From the NCBI GenBank assembly GCA_025351545.1, contig JANXVQ010000904.1, positions 1 through 21,784 of the forward strand: a stretch of DNA of 21,784 bases, read 5' to 3'. The notes under the pieces are model-generated. The model saw only the letters and a list, made by a program, of their open reading frames with translations. It was not told the DNA's origin and made no database searches. This document shows, piece after piece, positions 791 to 4,168 of the stretch (within the stretch, counting starts at the first letter, position 1; each line of letters opens with the position of its first letter). The position numbers and the translations under genes are program-made. The DNA is from Spirosoma sp. (GTDB taxonomy: Bacteria > Bacteroidota > Bacteroidia > Cytophagales > Spirosomataceae).

Positions 791-825
791 AAAAAAACGC
801 CGGGGCAAGTTGCTCCGGCGTTTTT
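791..825 (+). terminator. Rho-independent terminator after rmlA
   Basis: The arms CGCCGGGGCAA and TTGCTCCGGCG pair over 11 bp with one G-U pair around a 2-nt loop. The hairpin is preceded by an A run and followed by five T, so it could also act on the minus strand. It starts 29 bp after the rmlA stop codon. Confidence 0.9.
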
Positions 826-1168
826 CATTGACCTAACCTATAAGAAATGTCTTTGCTGAAGCTTGCTCAAACGGAGTGTTCACTAGCGACAAAATAAAGG
901 TAATTGTTTAGCGGGTAGCTATTTGAGAGCATAAATACTGGTTTTTATTATTGAAAATTAATCAGGCAAAAGCCCGCACTTTAATACGTATAAATACGCG
1001 TTGGTAAATGGCCTATGTGTACTAATTAATTGACTATCAACGTATTGATCTAATGGTTTGAGATTATGAGGGTTGGCGCACAAACAGACTTTTCGTAATT
1101 TAGATGTGCTTTCCAATTTTATCCATACAAGAACCACCTTACCTCATTTAATTTCAACCTTTTTTCTT
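826..1168. other. Intergenic region with no gene seen
   Basis: This is an AT-rich spacer between the rmlA terminator and the small CPQHC protein. I see no convincing reading frame and no tRNA-like fold. A weak promoter-like box TAATTTAG (7 of 8 matches to TAnnTTTG) lies near 1088-1095, about 75 bp before the ATG at 1169. It would suit the downstream module, but no good -33 element accompanies it. Confidence 0.4.
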
Positions 1169-1582
1169 ATGAGTGATAACGTTTTCAATGAAAATGCAGG
1201 GCGCTTCCTAAGCCCCACAGAAACCAGGCCCATGAAGGAGGCATACCGCAACGCTAAGCTAGCCTGTGGTCACAAGGAGAATGAGTATACTCGTTCGGAG
1301 TTTTTTGGTCTCGCCAAAGTAAATGAGCTGCTTAAACAGCCAGATTGTGTAGGAATTCGCATCCACTATGCCAATCGCTGGGAAGACGACAATGGTAAAC
1401 CTACCGAACAGGGTAAGGGAAAACACACCTCCCGTGTTCTATTGACAGCTGTAGATTTACGGGGCCGAGATTTGCCTGTTTATACTAGACCTGGCGGTTT
1501 AAAAGATGATGGTGGGGATGGCAATGAGGGAGAAATGACAGTAGGCGATGGAATGCCTTGTCCACAACATTGCGGACAGTAA
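1169..1582 (+). CDS. Uncharacterised small protein with C-terminal CPQHC motif
   Basis: The 137-residue product has no signal peptide and no membrane segment, and I cannot assign it to a named domain. The ATG at 1169 was chosen over an in-frame TTG at 1073 because the extra 32 residues look like translated leader. Visible features are SEFFGLAKVNELLKQPDCVG (residues 43-62), a beta-like stretch GIRIHYANRW, a Gly/Lys-rich loop, VLLTAVDLRGRDLPVY (90-105), an acidic Gly-rich linker and the C-terminus MPCPQHCGQ. It has four Cys, at 33, 60, 131 and 135. From memory, Bacteroidota genomes encode small proteins with the same pattern (Cys-x-Gly-[IV]-R-[IV] core, then VxVDxxGxD, then PCPxxC near the end) beside membrane proteins of the kind found next here. 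I could not verify this. The 20-bp gap to the next gene implies co-transcription. Function is unknown; a metal-binding, redox or processed C-terminus are possibilities. Confidence 0.75.
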   Translation: MSDNVFNENAGRFLSPTETRPMKEAYRNAKLACGHKENEYTRSEFFGLAKVNELLKQPDCVGIRIHYANRWEDDNGKPTEQGKGKHTSRVLLTAVDLRGRDLPVYTRPGGLKDDGGDGNEGEMTVGDGMPCPQHCGQ

Positions 1583-1602
1583 CTAATTTATTTATTACTA
1601 TT

Positions 1603-2280
1603 ATGCTTGAGAGGCTACTACTATTATGGGGAAAATATCCTTTAGATTTTATCACATATTTAAGTAGTGGCCTACCTGTCATTGTAGGATTATTTCGTTA
1701 TAAGTACATTTCTTTAGCATCAAAATTTATTCTTGCATTTTTTTTATTCTTTTTTGCAAAGGAGTCTTTTTCTATTTATCAATCAATTTTAAAGCATAAT
1801 AATTTATATCTACAAAATATTGAAATATTATTTAATATATTGATAGTATTAGCTATTGGGCTTTCATCTTTTCGCTCCCTTACTTGGAAGCGACTTGCCT
1901 TATTTTTAGCCACACTTTGCTTTATTTTCAGTCTCTTTACCTACCAAAGTAATGCTGTCTCCTCTGTAAGTTTATCAGCTTACCGACTTTTTGCAATATT
2001 TTTTTGCCTATCATACTTCAATAAAATAATAACTGACATGCGCGTGAAGAATATTACTAAGCACAGTATGTTCTGGTTCACGTCTGGATTACTTATTTAT
2101 TCTACCGGCACATTTTTCATCATGCTTTTTAGCGAATATTGGTATAAGGATATAAACAAAGTTTCTGCCGAAGTATTTGATAAATATTGGAATGCTAGTC
2201 AAGTATTATTCATTATTTTCTGTTTCTTCTCTGCTCATGGACTTTGGTTGAGCAAATATGAACAGGAAAATTTAATTTGA
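1603..2280 (+). CDS. Seven-transmembrane protein of unknown function
   Basis: The 225-residue product is strongly hydrophobic, with about seven membrane segments near residues 15-33, 35-53, 72-90, 97-114, 124-142, 155-177 and 197-216. It has no large soluble domain. The segment MFWFTSGLLIYSTGTFFIML near residue 156 and the ending AHGLWLSKY are the most distinctive parts. The ATG at 1603 was preferred to an in-frame TTG at 1558, because 1558 lies inside the upstream gene and 1603 leaves a 20-bp gap. The gene is visibly more AT-rich than its neighbours, partly because of its Phe, Ile, Tyr and Lys content, though transfer cannot be excluded. It precedes a sensor kinase gene that has no sensor domain, so I infer that it may be a membrane receptor or signal-transfer partner. 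It is not a recognisable transporter. Confidence 0.75.
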   Translation: MLERLLLLWGKYPLDFITYLSSGLPVIVGLFRYKYISLASKFILAFFLFFFAKESFSIYQSILKHNNLYLQNIEILFNILIVLAIGLSSFRSLTWKRLALFLATLCFIFSLFTYQSNAVSSVSLSAYRLFAIFFCLSYFNKIITDMRVKNITKHSMFWFTSGLLIYSTGTFFIMLFSEYWYKDINKVSAEVFDKYWNASQVLFIIFCFFSAHGLWLSKYEQENLI

Positions 2281-2382
2281 TACATTTATTCTAATAGATA
2301 AGCAGCATCACTGCTGTGATTACTGTTATAATGTTTGACTGCTAGTACACAAACTTATACAGAGTTGCCTCATAATTACCAG

Positions 2383-2486
2383 CAGGGCTTTCTTATAAAA
2401 ACTGACACGTTGATAATCAGACTATTCTTGTGAGGTCAGATTTGAGAATCTGACCTCACACAAGGCATTTTTATAAGAAAACCCTG
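2383..2486. mobile_element. MITE-like palindromic element with 19-bp terminal inverted repeats
   Basis: The left end CAGGGCTTTCTTATAAAAA (2383-2401) and the right end TTTTTATAAGAAAACCCTG (2468-2486) are inverted copies with 18 of 19 matches. They are flanked by near-identical 10-mers, TAATTACCAG (2373-2382) and TAATTAACAG (2487-2496), which look like a target-site duplication with one later change. The element encodes nothing and has a perfect 14-bp palindrome inside. Size, ends and flanks fit a non-autonomous transposable element, but no matching transposase is in the window and I cannot name an IS family. The alternative is a large nested hairpin acting in the transcript. It occupies the middle of the 347-bp gap between the membrane protein gene and the kinase gene. 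Confidence 0.6.
2429..2460. repeat. Perfect 14-bp inverted repeat inside the palindromic element
   Basis: The arms TGTGAGGTCAGATT (2429-2442) and AATCTGACCTCACA (2447-2460) are exact reverse complements around a TGAG loop. In RNA this would be a very stable hairpin. No T run follows, so it is not a textbook terminator. Confidence 0.85.
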
Positions 2487-2513
2487 TAATTAACAGTGGT
2501 TGACCAATTTATC

Positions 2514-2538
2514 AGCAGGAGATAAAACTTCTCCTGCT
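2514..2538 (+). terminator. Terminator-like hairpin upstream of the kinase gene
   Basis: The arms AGCAGGAGA and TCTCCTGCT (9 bp, perfect) enclose a 7-nt loop and are followed by AAATTTTA. The short, broken T tract makes termination uncertain. If active, it would separate the transcript of the two upstream genes from that of the kinase and regulator. Confidence 0.45.
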
Positions 2539-2627
2539 AAATTTTACCATTCGCTCAATACTTACAGTTAATTAGTTGATATTCAGCGTATATTATCGAA
2601 ATTTACTTTGATCGGTCAATAGCCTTT

Positions 2628-3440
2628 ATGTCAATAGACTCTAGTTTTGTGATTGCCTTGGGTACGGCCGTATTATTGACGATGGCGGTGTTCATCATCA
2701 TTTTTGTGGCATATTATCAGCAAAAACAGGCAAAACAACAACTGGCCTTCAAGGAATTACAGGTCCAGCACCGGCGCGACCTGATGGCCGCGACTTTCCG
2801 GGGACAGGAAGAAGAACGAAAGCGACTGGCTGAGGATATGCACGATGGTATTGGTACTATGCTGTCTGTGACAAAAATGAGCCTTAATCAGCTGGAACGA
2901 CAGGCGGGCAATGACGTAATGTTGGGTTTTCAGTTTCAGAAAACCCGCTCCATGATCGACGAAACAATGACTAATGTTCGGCGTATCAGCCGCAATTTAG
3001 TCCCCACAACTCTTGAACGTTTCGGCTTGCTGGCCGCCCTTGAAGAACTGGCCGATCGCGCTACCGATAAAGATACCGAAGTACAGTTGACATATCCTGA
3101 ATCGGCAATTCCGTTTCCGCCTGCTCTGGATCTGATGCTTTATCGAATTACGCAGGAGTTAGTCAATAACGCCATTCGGCATGCCCGCGCCAGGCATATT
3201 ATTATTCAACTATTTAGTATAGATAATGAGGTCCGGTTATCGGTGCTTGACGATGGAGTAGGCTTTGATTTTGACGTGATTATGGAAAACAAACAGGGCG
3301 GGTTGGGACTGCGGAATATTGAAAGTCGTTTGAGTGTCGTGAATGGGCACGTTACATTCGATGTAGCCCCCGGTCGCGGCTCACAGATTCATATACAGGT
3401 TCGGCTCTATGACGCGCAACCTGTTGATTTAATGAGTTAA
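2628..3440 (+). CDS. Sensor histidine kinase, HisKA_3 type, single membrane anchor
   Basis: This 270-residue kinase autophosphorylates on His and passes the phosphate to a response regulator, almost certainly the adjacent one. One membrane segment (about residues 8-29) is followed by a Gln/Lys-rich coiled-coil linker. The HisKA_3 dimerisation domain has the H-box EERKRLAEDMHDGIGTMLS with the phospho-acceptor His72. The HATPase domain has the N-box ITQELVNNAIRHA (174-186, with E177 and N181), the G1 box LDDGVGFDF and the G2 box GGLGLRNIESR. Fewer than ten residues precede the membrane segment and there is no PAS, HAMP or other sensor domain, so the signal must come from a partner; the seven-transmembrane protein upstream is the obvious candidate. 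A box TTACTTTG at 2603-2610 (7 of 8 matches to TAnnTTTG) could give this gene its own promoter. The ATG start is clear. Confidence 0.93.
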   Translation: MSIDSSFVIALGTAVLLTMAVFIIIFVAYYQQKQAKQQLAFKELQVQHRRDLMAATFRGQEEERKRLAEDMHDGIGTMLSVTKMSLNQLERQAGNDVMLGFQFQKTRSMIDETMTNVRRISRNLVPTTLERFGLLAALEELADRATDKDTEVQLTYPESAIPFPPALDLMLYRITQELVNNAIRHARARHIIIQLFSIDNEVRLSVLDDGVGFDFDVIMENKQGGLGLRNIESRLSVVNGHVTFDVAPGRGSQIHIQVRLYDAQPVDLMS

Positions 3441-3508
3441 TTTGTTTGCCAAATGATTCTTCTTCTGTACAACGAATACGGCATCAGTATTTAAACTCTT
3501 CCTCTTCC

Positions 3509-4168
3509 ATGCGAAAAATTAAATTGGCCCTCTGCGACGATCATACTTTATTTCGCGTTGGAATGGCGACTATACTTGGGCAGATTCACGATTTTGAGCT
3601 GGTTCTGGAAGCCGCCAATGGGCAGGAATTAATTGATCGGATTGCCCGGAAATTACCTGACGTTGTGTTGCTCGATCTTCAAATGCCGGTTATGGACGGC
3701 ACAGCTACAGCTGATTATCTGCGCGAAAATTACCCCCTTATCAAAATTGTCGTGCTAACAATGCATGATGAAGATCGCATGGTGCTCCACCTGCTCGAAA
3801 AGGGCGTTAGTGGCTATTTACTGAAAGATGCTGAAGCTGGAGAGGTGGAAAAAGCTATTCGGAAAGTGATGGACGAAGGCGTTTACCTGAACGAATTCGT
3901 GTCGAAAGCAATGCTTCGGAAAATGACCAATAAAACGACCGTAGCGAAGCCAGTTAATGGTTTTTATAATAGTAAAATTTTGCTCTCCGAGCGTGAAAAG
4001 GAAGTGCTAATGCTTATTTGTGAAGGACTTTCAACACTTGAAATCAGTGAAAAGATATTTCTTAGCCCTCGTACGGTTGAAGGGCATCGTTTACGGATTC
4101 TCGAAAAAACCGGCACTAAAAATACGGCTGGCATGGTAGCCTATGCGTTTAAAAATAGCTTAGTCTAA
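3509..4168 (+). CDS. NarL/LuxR-type response regulator
   Basis: The 219-residue product has an N-terminal receiver domain (about 3-120) and a C-terminal LuxR-type helix-turn-helix (about 152-215). Receiver residues are the acidic pair D10/D11, phospho-acceptor D56 in VVLLDLQMPVMDG, T84 in VVLTMHDED and K106 in GYLLKDA. The DNA-binding domain shows LSEREKEVLMLICEGLSTLE, then ISEKIFLSPRTVEGHRLRIL. The ATG at 3509 gives the usual MRKIKLALCDDH start; an in-frame TTG at 3446 would add 21 unlikely residues. It lies 68 bp after the kinase stop codon, so the pair should be co-transcribed. It probably acts as a cytoplasmic transcription factor once phosphorylated. Its targets cannot be read from the sequence, although autoregulation of the module is plausible. 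Confidence 0.93.
   Translation: MRKIKLALCDDHTLFRVGMATILGQIHDFELVLEAANGQELIDRIARKLPDVVLLDLQMPVMDGTATADYLRENYPLIKIVVLTMHDEDRMVLHLLEKGVSGYLLKDAEAGEVEKAIRKVMDEGVYLNEFVSKAMLRKMTNKTTVAKPVNGFYNSKILLSEREKEVLMLICEGLSTLEISEKIFLSPRTVEGHRLRILEKTGTKNTAGMVAYAFKNSLV

Follow-up and report, generated by a model that had tools for sequence, protein, structure and literature searches.

How does a histidine kinase that carries no sensor domain of its own receive a signal? The question is raised by a Spirosoma sp. contig (JANXVQ010000904.1 of assembly GCA_025351545.1), a stretch of 21,784 nucleotides that we refer to as the window and that comes from a fragmented metagenome-assembled genome (MAG; 5.07 Mb, 1028 contigs, 80% complete). 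The window's list of open reading frames (ORFs) holds four plus-strand ORFs at positions 1169-4168, in the order SMALL (a small protein with a CPxxC tail), MEM (a seven-helix membrane protein), HK (a histidine kinase), and RR (its response regulator). An earlier note on this DNA, made from the letters alone, had described four successive plus-strand genes of which two were unrecognised; all four ORFs are present, and SMALL and MEM are the two without a family match. We consider it likely that the four genes form one relay that runs from SMALL to MEM, from MEM to the kinase, and from the kinase to the regulator.

HK (2628..3440, plus strand) is 270 amino acids long and contains a HisKA_3 domain at residues 63-129 (45.3 bits, Pfam cut-off 24) and an HATPase_c domain at residues 170-260 (45.7 bits, cut-off 26.4). 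One hydrophobic segment, a single transmembrane segment, lies ahead of both domains, and a family scan matched no sensor domain in HK, in keeping with the earlier reading that the kinase's input region is limited to one membrane segment. RR (3509..4168, plus strand) consists of a receiver domain (82.8 bits, cut-off 30.2) and a GerE (LuxR-type) helix-turn-helix (HTH; 52.7 bits, cut-off 23.5). Its mechanically called ORF opens at TTG 3446; since the family alignments start at residue 22-25, the likely start is ATG 3509, which yields a protein of 219 amino acids. Judged by their domain content, HK and RR can be assigned to the HisKA_3/NarL-type two-component systems.

The two genes ahead of the kinase gave no such matches. 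SMALL (1169..1582, plus strand; 137 amino acids) is modelled as helices and a beta hairpin followed by a low-confidence C-terminal tail ending in CPQHCGQ (PCPQHCGQ in the ORF translation), and it has no signal peptide. MEM (1603..2280, plus strand) is a seven-helix membrane protein of 225 amino acids with a predicted N-out/C-in topology. Neither matched Pfam, NCBIfam, or PADLOC even at E≤1, and a PHROGs scan of the module's four proteins gave no match for SMALL or MEM at E≤0.01. When 41 SMALL relatives and 46 MEM relatives were compared with Pfam and NCBIfam at E≤0.1, the matches were scattered, with no family recurring in more than one member of either set. Sequence searches of the PDB reached best E values of 0.41 with the SMALL profile and 0.028 with the MEM profile, and a comparison of the SMALL fold found no PDB match with E≤0.001, a result that is inconclusive taken alone. 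The named relatives of both proteins are Spirosoma proteins (up to 77% identity for SMALL and up to 72% for MEM). The note had proposed profile searches with both orphan proteins, and these have produced no convincing family or solved-structure match for either one. Its suggestion that the system is conserved but undescribed fits both the database searches and the literature: the titles and abstract starts of open-licence PMC papers yielded no account of the four-gene module, and none appears in the available part of PMC12419801.

Profile searches found SMALL and MEM in all 36 Spirosoma genomes, and their coordinates place the two genes next to each other in all 36, with MEM broken in one genome (G008). 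Across the 222 genomes of the family Spirosomataceae, narrow profiles detected SMALL in 141 and MEM in 147. In the 52 family loci holding SMALL, MEM adjoins it in 52/52 and all four genes are present in 47/52, the five loci without an adjacent kinase being L071, L083, L088, L106, and L119; a search covering these five found a close kinase homolog elsewhere in each genome, and the Fibrella loci L340 and L342 lay outside that search. Paralogs first listed as MEM without SMALL (L095-L102) turned out, with a better profile and inspection of upstream ORFs, to follow a divergent SMALL or a CP-ended ORF in 8/8 cases, and the idea that MEM often acts alone was therefore dropped. Three further arrangements were seen within the genus and family. 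Locus L070 (6266-8083), from one Spirosoma genome, combines a broken MEM with a lipoprotein that carries two SMALL domains and lies between MEM and the kinase. The source genome itself has a second, divergent SMALL-MEM pair (L211; genome G000, contig C226, 140-1149) on a contig that ends right after MEM, and a SMALL resembling that of L211 belongs to two tandem four-gene modules in genome G023 (L102).

Beyond the family, a broader profile detected SMALL in 65/395 genomes sampled from the class and MEM in 123/395 of them at E≤1e-5, while SMALL was found in 48/395 genomes sampled from the phylum. A scan of named genomes gave 74 loci, including Hymenobacter, Chitinophaga, Larkinella, Fibrella, and Fulvivirga as well as MAGs labelled Neomarinimicrobiota, Ignavibacteria, Calditrichia, and Zixibacteria. 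Full four-gene modules occur in Neomarinimicrobiota (L279, L280, L299, L312) and in one Ignavibacteria MAG (L308); the Zixibacteria contig does not extend far enough for a judgement on the module, and a single Anaerolineales match is marginal.

The loci used for counting were partly hand-picked for diversity (52 from the family, 30 from the class, 17 from the phylum, and 74 from named genomes). Removal of eight duplicates, 16 loci that were too short, and five without a SMALL ORF left 144 SMALL loci, free of duplicates and each followed by at least 3.2 kb of downstream sequence. Counted with kinase, regulator, and final MEM and SMALL profiles that were built from these same loci, MEM is present in 142 of the 144, HK in 128, RR in 129, and some kinase in 131 (three of another class), and all four genes occur together in 127. 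The co-occurrence of the four families, which the note had named as the test of its proposal, is thus borne out in 127/144 loci, and its statement that Bacteroidota repeatedly pair small proteins of the PCPxxC kind with membrane proteins is confirmed, MEM adjoining SMALL in 142/144. The module kinases are short (at most 300 amino acids in 119/128) and mostly have one hydrophobic segment within their first 150 residues (118/128), and MEM and HK overlap in 81% of 27 class-set cases.

Linkage of this kind could in principle be mere conserved synteny or a housekeeping operon in which the orphan proteins' functions have nothing to do with the kinase, and the RmlA, SDR, LemA, and TPM genes that flank the module are indeed also widely conserved within Spirosomataceae. 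Beyond the family, these flanking genes are no longer found, whereas the four-gene set persists: RmlA, LemA, TPM, and GmhA flanks were unmatched in 30 class-set loci, save two weak generic SDR matches, and a search for a fifth module gene found no flank ORF cluster in more than 9/113 loci. Since the flanks do not travel with the module outside the family, the linkage is not general synteny. The joining of SMALL-MEM to a different kinase class in three loci also speaks against this explanation, which we regard as highly improbable.

Those three loci place a hybrid PAS-HisKA-receiver kinase (L218, L286) or a PAS-HisKA kinase (L219) after SMALL-MEM. Elsewhere the HisKA_3 kinase itself carries PAS or PAS/GAF domains (L279 of Neomarinimicrobiota, L308 of Ignavibacteria, L215, and L216), and at L289 (7737-9092) the module regulator has an AraC-type HTH and an AraC-binding/cupin domain in place of the LuxR-type HTH. 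Because SMALL-MEM is found before other kinase types, it resembles a front end to which different kinases can be coupled. The front end is also variable in copy number: two SMALLs and two MEMs occur in 10/144 loci, for example in the order SMALL-MEM-SMALL-MEM-HK-RR in L107, L108, L330, and L333-L335, and other loci have up to four MEMs. Three unusual neighbourhoods were noted in passing. In a Chitinophaga MAG (L325, 6336-9002), SMALL-MEM is followed by an unassigned 195-amino-acid ORF and a PrnB-type protein, with no kinase; in a Calditrichia MAG (L314, 5012-9600), a SMALL with a leader has a weak MEM match on one side and an LRR-Roc-COR protein on the other, and the surroundings gave no kinase match; and at L228 (6100-9533), where MEM is missing, two secreted SMALL proteins with a double domain each precede bestrophin-like and TauE-like membrane proteins.

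Linkage was also assessed starting from MEM. We took the last 20 among the class MEM matches listed, which are weak and were chosen regardless of SMALL, and fetched 3 kb on each side of them. At these 20 new loci, which were scored with profiles built from the earlier loci, a kinase lies within 1.5 kb downstream of MEM in 17 and overlaps MEM in 14, and a regulator lies within 2.6 kb in 18; L362, L369, and L370 have no kinase within 1.5 kb downstream. The expected co-occurrence therefore holds from the MEM side as well (17/20). The gene just 5' of a weak MEM is usually longer and very divergent, with a SMALL-profile match (E≤0.1) in 4/20 only, and with filters off a few more of these genes show weak SMALL similarity. 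CPxxC is present in the last 45 residues of the gene before MEM in 7/20 loci, and by eye five more (L356, L359, L361, L366, L369) carry a CP tail with two cysteines that are spaced differently or that lie in an ORF slightly farther away. About 10 of the 20 partner genes, again judged by eye, encode a lipoprotein (L356, L358, L359, L362, L363, L368, L369, L374), a secreted protein (L364), or a membrane-anchored protein (L360), and only some of the exported genes before remote MEMs are detectably related to SMALL; L365, L367, and L370 have no recognisable partner gene before MEM. Across the wider family, it is thus MEM and the kinase that stay most constant, and a CP tail is often retained by the partner.

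Partial correlations of pairwise evolutionary distances among the four proteins, calculated over 82 loci, were highest for HK-RR (0.60) and SMALL-MEM (0.38), followed by MEM-RR (0.26), MEM-HK (0.22), SMALL-HK (0.00), and SMALL-RR (-0.15). Restricting the calculation to distant pairs gave 0.39 for HK-RR, 0.32 for SMALL-MEM, 0.23 for MEM-RR, 0.14 for MEM-HK, -0.14 for SMALL-HK, and -0.20 for SMALL-RR, and when SMALL was permuted the observed SMALL-MEM value was reached 0/200 times. Since SMALL tracks MEM only, the pattern fits SMALL contacting MEM and not the kinase, as support rather than proof, given that the genomes compared include relatives and so are not independent.

The AlphaFold2 model of MEM (mean predicted local distance difference test 95.2, predicted template modelling score 0.90) has seven long helices, a short N-terminal one, and a short extra one, so that the seven membrane segments originally read from the sequence reappear as a confidently predicted seven-helix bundle. 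Loop charges favour an N-out/C-in topology. The best-conserved positions are F, N, W, G, and Y together with a membrane acid; in the model, E54, N67, and N72 point towards the outside and F157-W158 lies at the cytoplasmic end of helix 6. We found no sequence relation between MEM and microbial rhodopsins or G protein-coupled receptor (GPCR)-type receptors, and the hydrophobic core of helix 7 (196-216) contains no lysine; K194, at the outer edge of that helix, is replaced by F, Q, S, or I in the close relatives P0066, P0081, P0086, and P0088. Pfam also holds a receptor domain named 7TMR-DISM. MEM has no such domain by Pfam at E≤1, and neither this nor any other family occurred in more than 1/46 MEM relatives at E≤0.1.

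On which side of the membrane SMALL would meet MEM bears on two alternatives. SMALL could be a cytosolic adaptor or a redox or metal sensor whose CPxxC motif forms a disulfide or holds a metal inside the cell and which acts on the cytoplasmic face of MEM or on the kinase, with MEM as an anchor or scaffold. In line with this alternative, no leader can be recognised in the window SMALL or in the large majority of the 181 SMALL ORFs, and the two tail cysteines usually occur as a pair or not at all (both in 162, none in 10, one in 9). A redox partner of a kinase has a precedent in HbpS-SenS-SenR of Streptomyces, although HbpS is secreted (available part of PMC4991794). We nevertheless think this alternative somewhat unlikely, given credible leaders or anchors in 13/181 SMALL ORFs (a hydrophobicity window flagged 18, of which 13 were kept by eye), the lipoprotein, secreted, or membrane-anchored genes before about half of the 20 weak MEMs, the SMALL distances that track MEM and not the kinase, and the ten SMALL members that have neither cysteine. 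Because the partner before MEM in remote loci is often a lipoprotein or otherwise exported, the original SMALL-MEM contact was probably periplasmic; the leaderless Spirosoma SMALL itself may be exported or cytosolic.

A second alternative makes MEM an exporter, processor, or immobiliser of SMALL, or of a C-terminal tail peptide, with the product acting as a pheromone-like intercellular signal that the kinase senses. Peptide pheromone operons run in the order signal precursor, membrane protein, kinase, and regulator, which the module's gene order resembles; moreover, the conserved C-terminal tail of SMALL comes after a folded domain, and a dedicated exporter would explain the many leaderless SMALLs. 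The 28 best-conserved MEM positions, however, include no peptidase-like Cys/His/Ser set, and tandem SMALL domains and lipoprotein forms are unlike peptide precursors, which makes this alternative improbable in our view. Tandem SMALL-type domains within one protein occur in L221, L230, L228, and L374, some of them secreted or lipoproteins, and by eye the L374 protein has two CP-tailed halves. A further leader-bearing SMALL is visible in L115. Stops were reported inside SMALL of some genomes; in genome G172, the one whose coordinates were compared (with locus L107), they looked like the terminal stop taken into the match.

Spirosoma loci share a 7-2-7 inverted repeat about 110-190 bp 5' of SMALL, with the consensus TACGTAG-NN-CTACGTA. 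With at most two mismatches and within 400 bp upstream of SMALL, this dyad is found in 26/33 genus loci, compared with 3 matches elsewhere in 503 kb and 1 in shuffles. NarL binds inverted heptamers 2 bp apart, that is, 7-2-7 sites (available part of PMC7419079). The window copy, a candidate regulator-binding dyad at 985..1000 (no strand assigned), reads TACGTAT-AA-ATACGCG and was counted only for its aligned position. In the five Spirosomataceae genomes with a relocated kinase, the dyad stays 5' of SMALL (1, 2, 2, 3, and 3 mismatches), and no dyad with at most two mismatches was found in the 3.8 kb surrounding the relocated kinase. Outside the family, 7-2-7 repeats are present in 25/104 SMALL upstreams versus 28/284 control upstreams (Fisher p 0.0007), and two Chitinophaga loci carry TGCGTAG-TT-CTACGCA upstream of SMALL. 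The conserved dyad upstream of SMALL suggests that the module may be autoregulated.

In the relay that we propose, SMALL would be a dedicated partner of MEM, either a ligand or a signal-binding subunit, and MEM a seven-helix receptor in the inner membrane that would control the sensorless kinase through the transmembrane segments of both proteins. The kinase would phosphorylate the NarL/LuxR-type regulator, which would bind the 7-2-7 dyad upstream of SMALL and so control its own module and probably other genes. The computed evidence supports four-gene linkage, SMALL-MEM and MEM-kinase coupling, the interchangeability of the kinase, and the conservation of the dyad. That MEM is the receptor, that SMALL binds it via the CPxxC tail, that control runs in this direction, and that this regulator acts on this dyad is what we infer from them; the roles of MEM as receptor and of SMALL as ligand or adaptor are consistent with the co-variation, the kinase swaps, and the MEM model.

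Several observations weigh against this relay. MEM-RR co-variation (0.26) is no weaker than MEM-HK co-variation (0.22), so that these distances do not establish the MEM-kinase step; the loci used in that calculation come from related genomes and hence are not independent. Linkage is imperfect in that 13/144 SMALL loci have no kinase nearby and in that the closest kinase homolog sits elsewhere in five Spirosomataceae genomes (60-76% identity), so tight linkage is not obligatory. The CPxxC tail of SMALL is not universal (both cysteines in 162/181 only), and the window SMALL has no signal peptide, whereas MEM's conserved polar residues point to the outside. As for the dyad, the loci in which it was counted also supplied its pattern; at up to three mismatches it is found in 32/33 genus loci but also in 26 places elsewhere, and the window copy differs at 4/14 positions, a threshold at which 503 kb holds 122 other matches. 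In loci from outside the family, SMALL upstreams are richer than the controls in inverted repeats whatever the gap tested (two- to fourfold for gaps 0, 4, 6, and 8 and about 1.5- to 2-fold for odd gaps) and are lower in GC (0.33 vs 0.36), so that the repeats do not define the exact site there.

Accessory-gated two-component systems are already known, namely HbpS-SenS-SenR, LiaFSR, and UhpABC; the module resembles these systems and falls within the definition of none. UhpC-UhpB-UhpA of Escherichia coli also combines a separate membrane receptor with a HisKA_3-type kinase and a NarL-family regulator. UhpC is a transporter-like protein of about 12 helices, whereas MEM matches no Pfam family and its model shows seven long helices, and UhpABC has no SMALL; with NCBIfam models, HK scored 87.5 bits against UhpB (cut-off 408) and RR 72.3 bits against UhpA (cut-off 258). 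LiaFSR and other intramembrane-sensing kinases are like the module in that an accessory membrane protein is required by the two-component system. LiaF, an inhibitor (available parts of PMC3543457 and PMC7191749), belongs to another family than MEM, however, and HK scored 107.3 bits against Strep_LiaS (equivalog cut-off 450). As far as the available part of PMC4991794 describes it, HbpS-SenS-SenR likewise has a dedicated partner protein, a membrane kinase, and a response regulator in one cluster, with the partner modulating the kinase, but HbpS is a secreted GAF-like protein that touches the kinase's own sensing domain, and no seven-helix protein is part of that system. SMALL showed no membership of an HbpS-type partner family, with no Pfam match at E≤1 and a fold comparison without a significant match, the latter inconclusive alone.

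The remaining features of the window concern the module's borders and spacing. A truncated RmlA-type gene (25-762) lies at the left end of the window, 5' of the module, and is followed by an inverted repeat and T run (799..820, no strand assigned) that reads as its likely terminator; because this terminator closes the RmlA-type gene upstream, the module is probably its own transcription unit. Spacing within the module is uneven, with a MEM-HK gap of 347 bp that holds an element resembling a miniature inverted-repeat transposable element (2383..2486, no strand assigned), which is outside the conserved module. The element is 104 bp long and dispersed, and the 19-bp terminal inverted repeats at its two ends differ by one mismatch and enclose a palindrome; its 19-bp end has 32 matches in the source genome at up to one mismatch, compared with 0 for a reversed-pattern control. 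The end sequence is also present in 13/36 genus genomes.

The sequence of a kinase that lacks a sensor domain does not reveal which signal it receives, and the module would supply the missing front end for one widespread class of such kinases. SMALL and MEM are two protein families without a Pfam or NCBIfam model that occur together in many Bacteroidota and beyond, and through the SMALL relatives (740 at E≤1e-5 in one profile search) annotators could name hundreds of "hypothetical proteins". The module also offers a candidate binding site for its regulator. As a speculative and rather unlikely extension, bacteria of the FCB (Fibrobacteres-Chlorobi-Bacteroidetes) group might have a GPCR-like arrangement in which the seven-helix receptor MEM recognises the tail of a protein ligand that has its own gene (SMALL or a lipoprotein ending in a CP tail) and passes the signal across the membrane to exchangeable histidine kinases, possibly reporting intercellular or envelope signals. 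If the proposed relay is true, it would provide defined genes, an order of action open to testing, and a reporter site, all in harmless soil bacteria that can be cultured, and the module would represent a new type of accessory-gated two-component system whose seven-helix receptor can be swapped.

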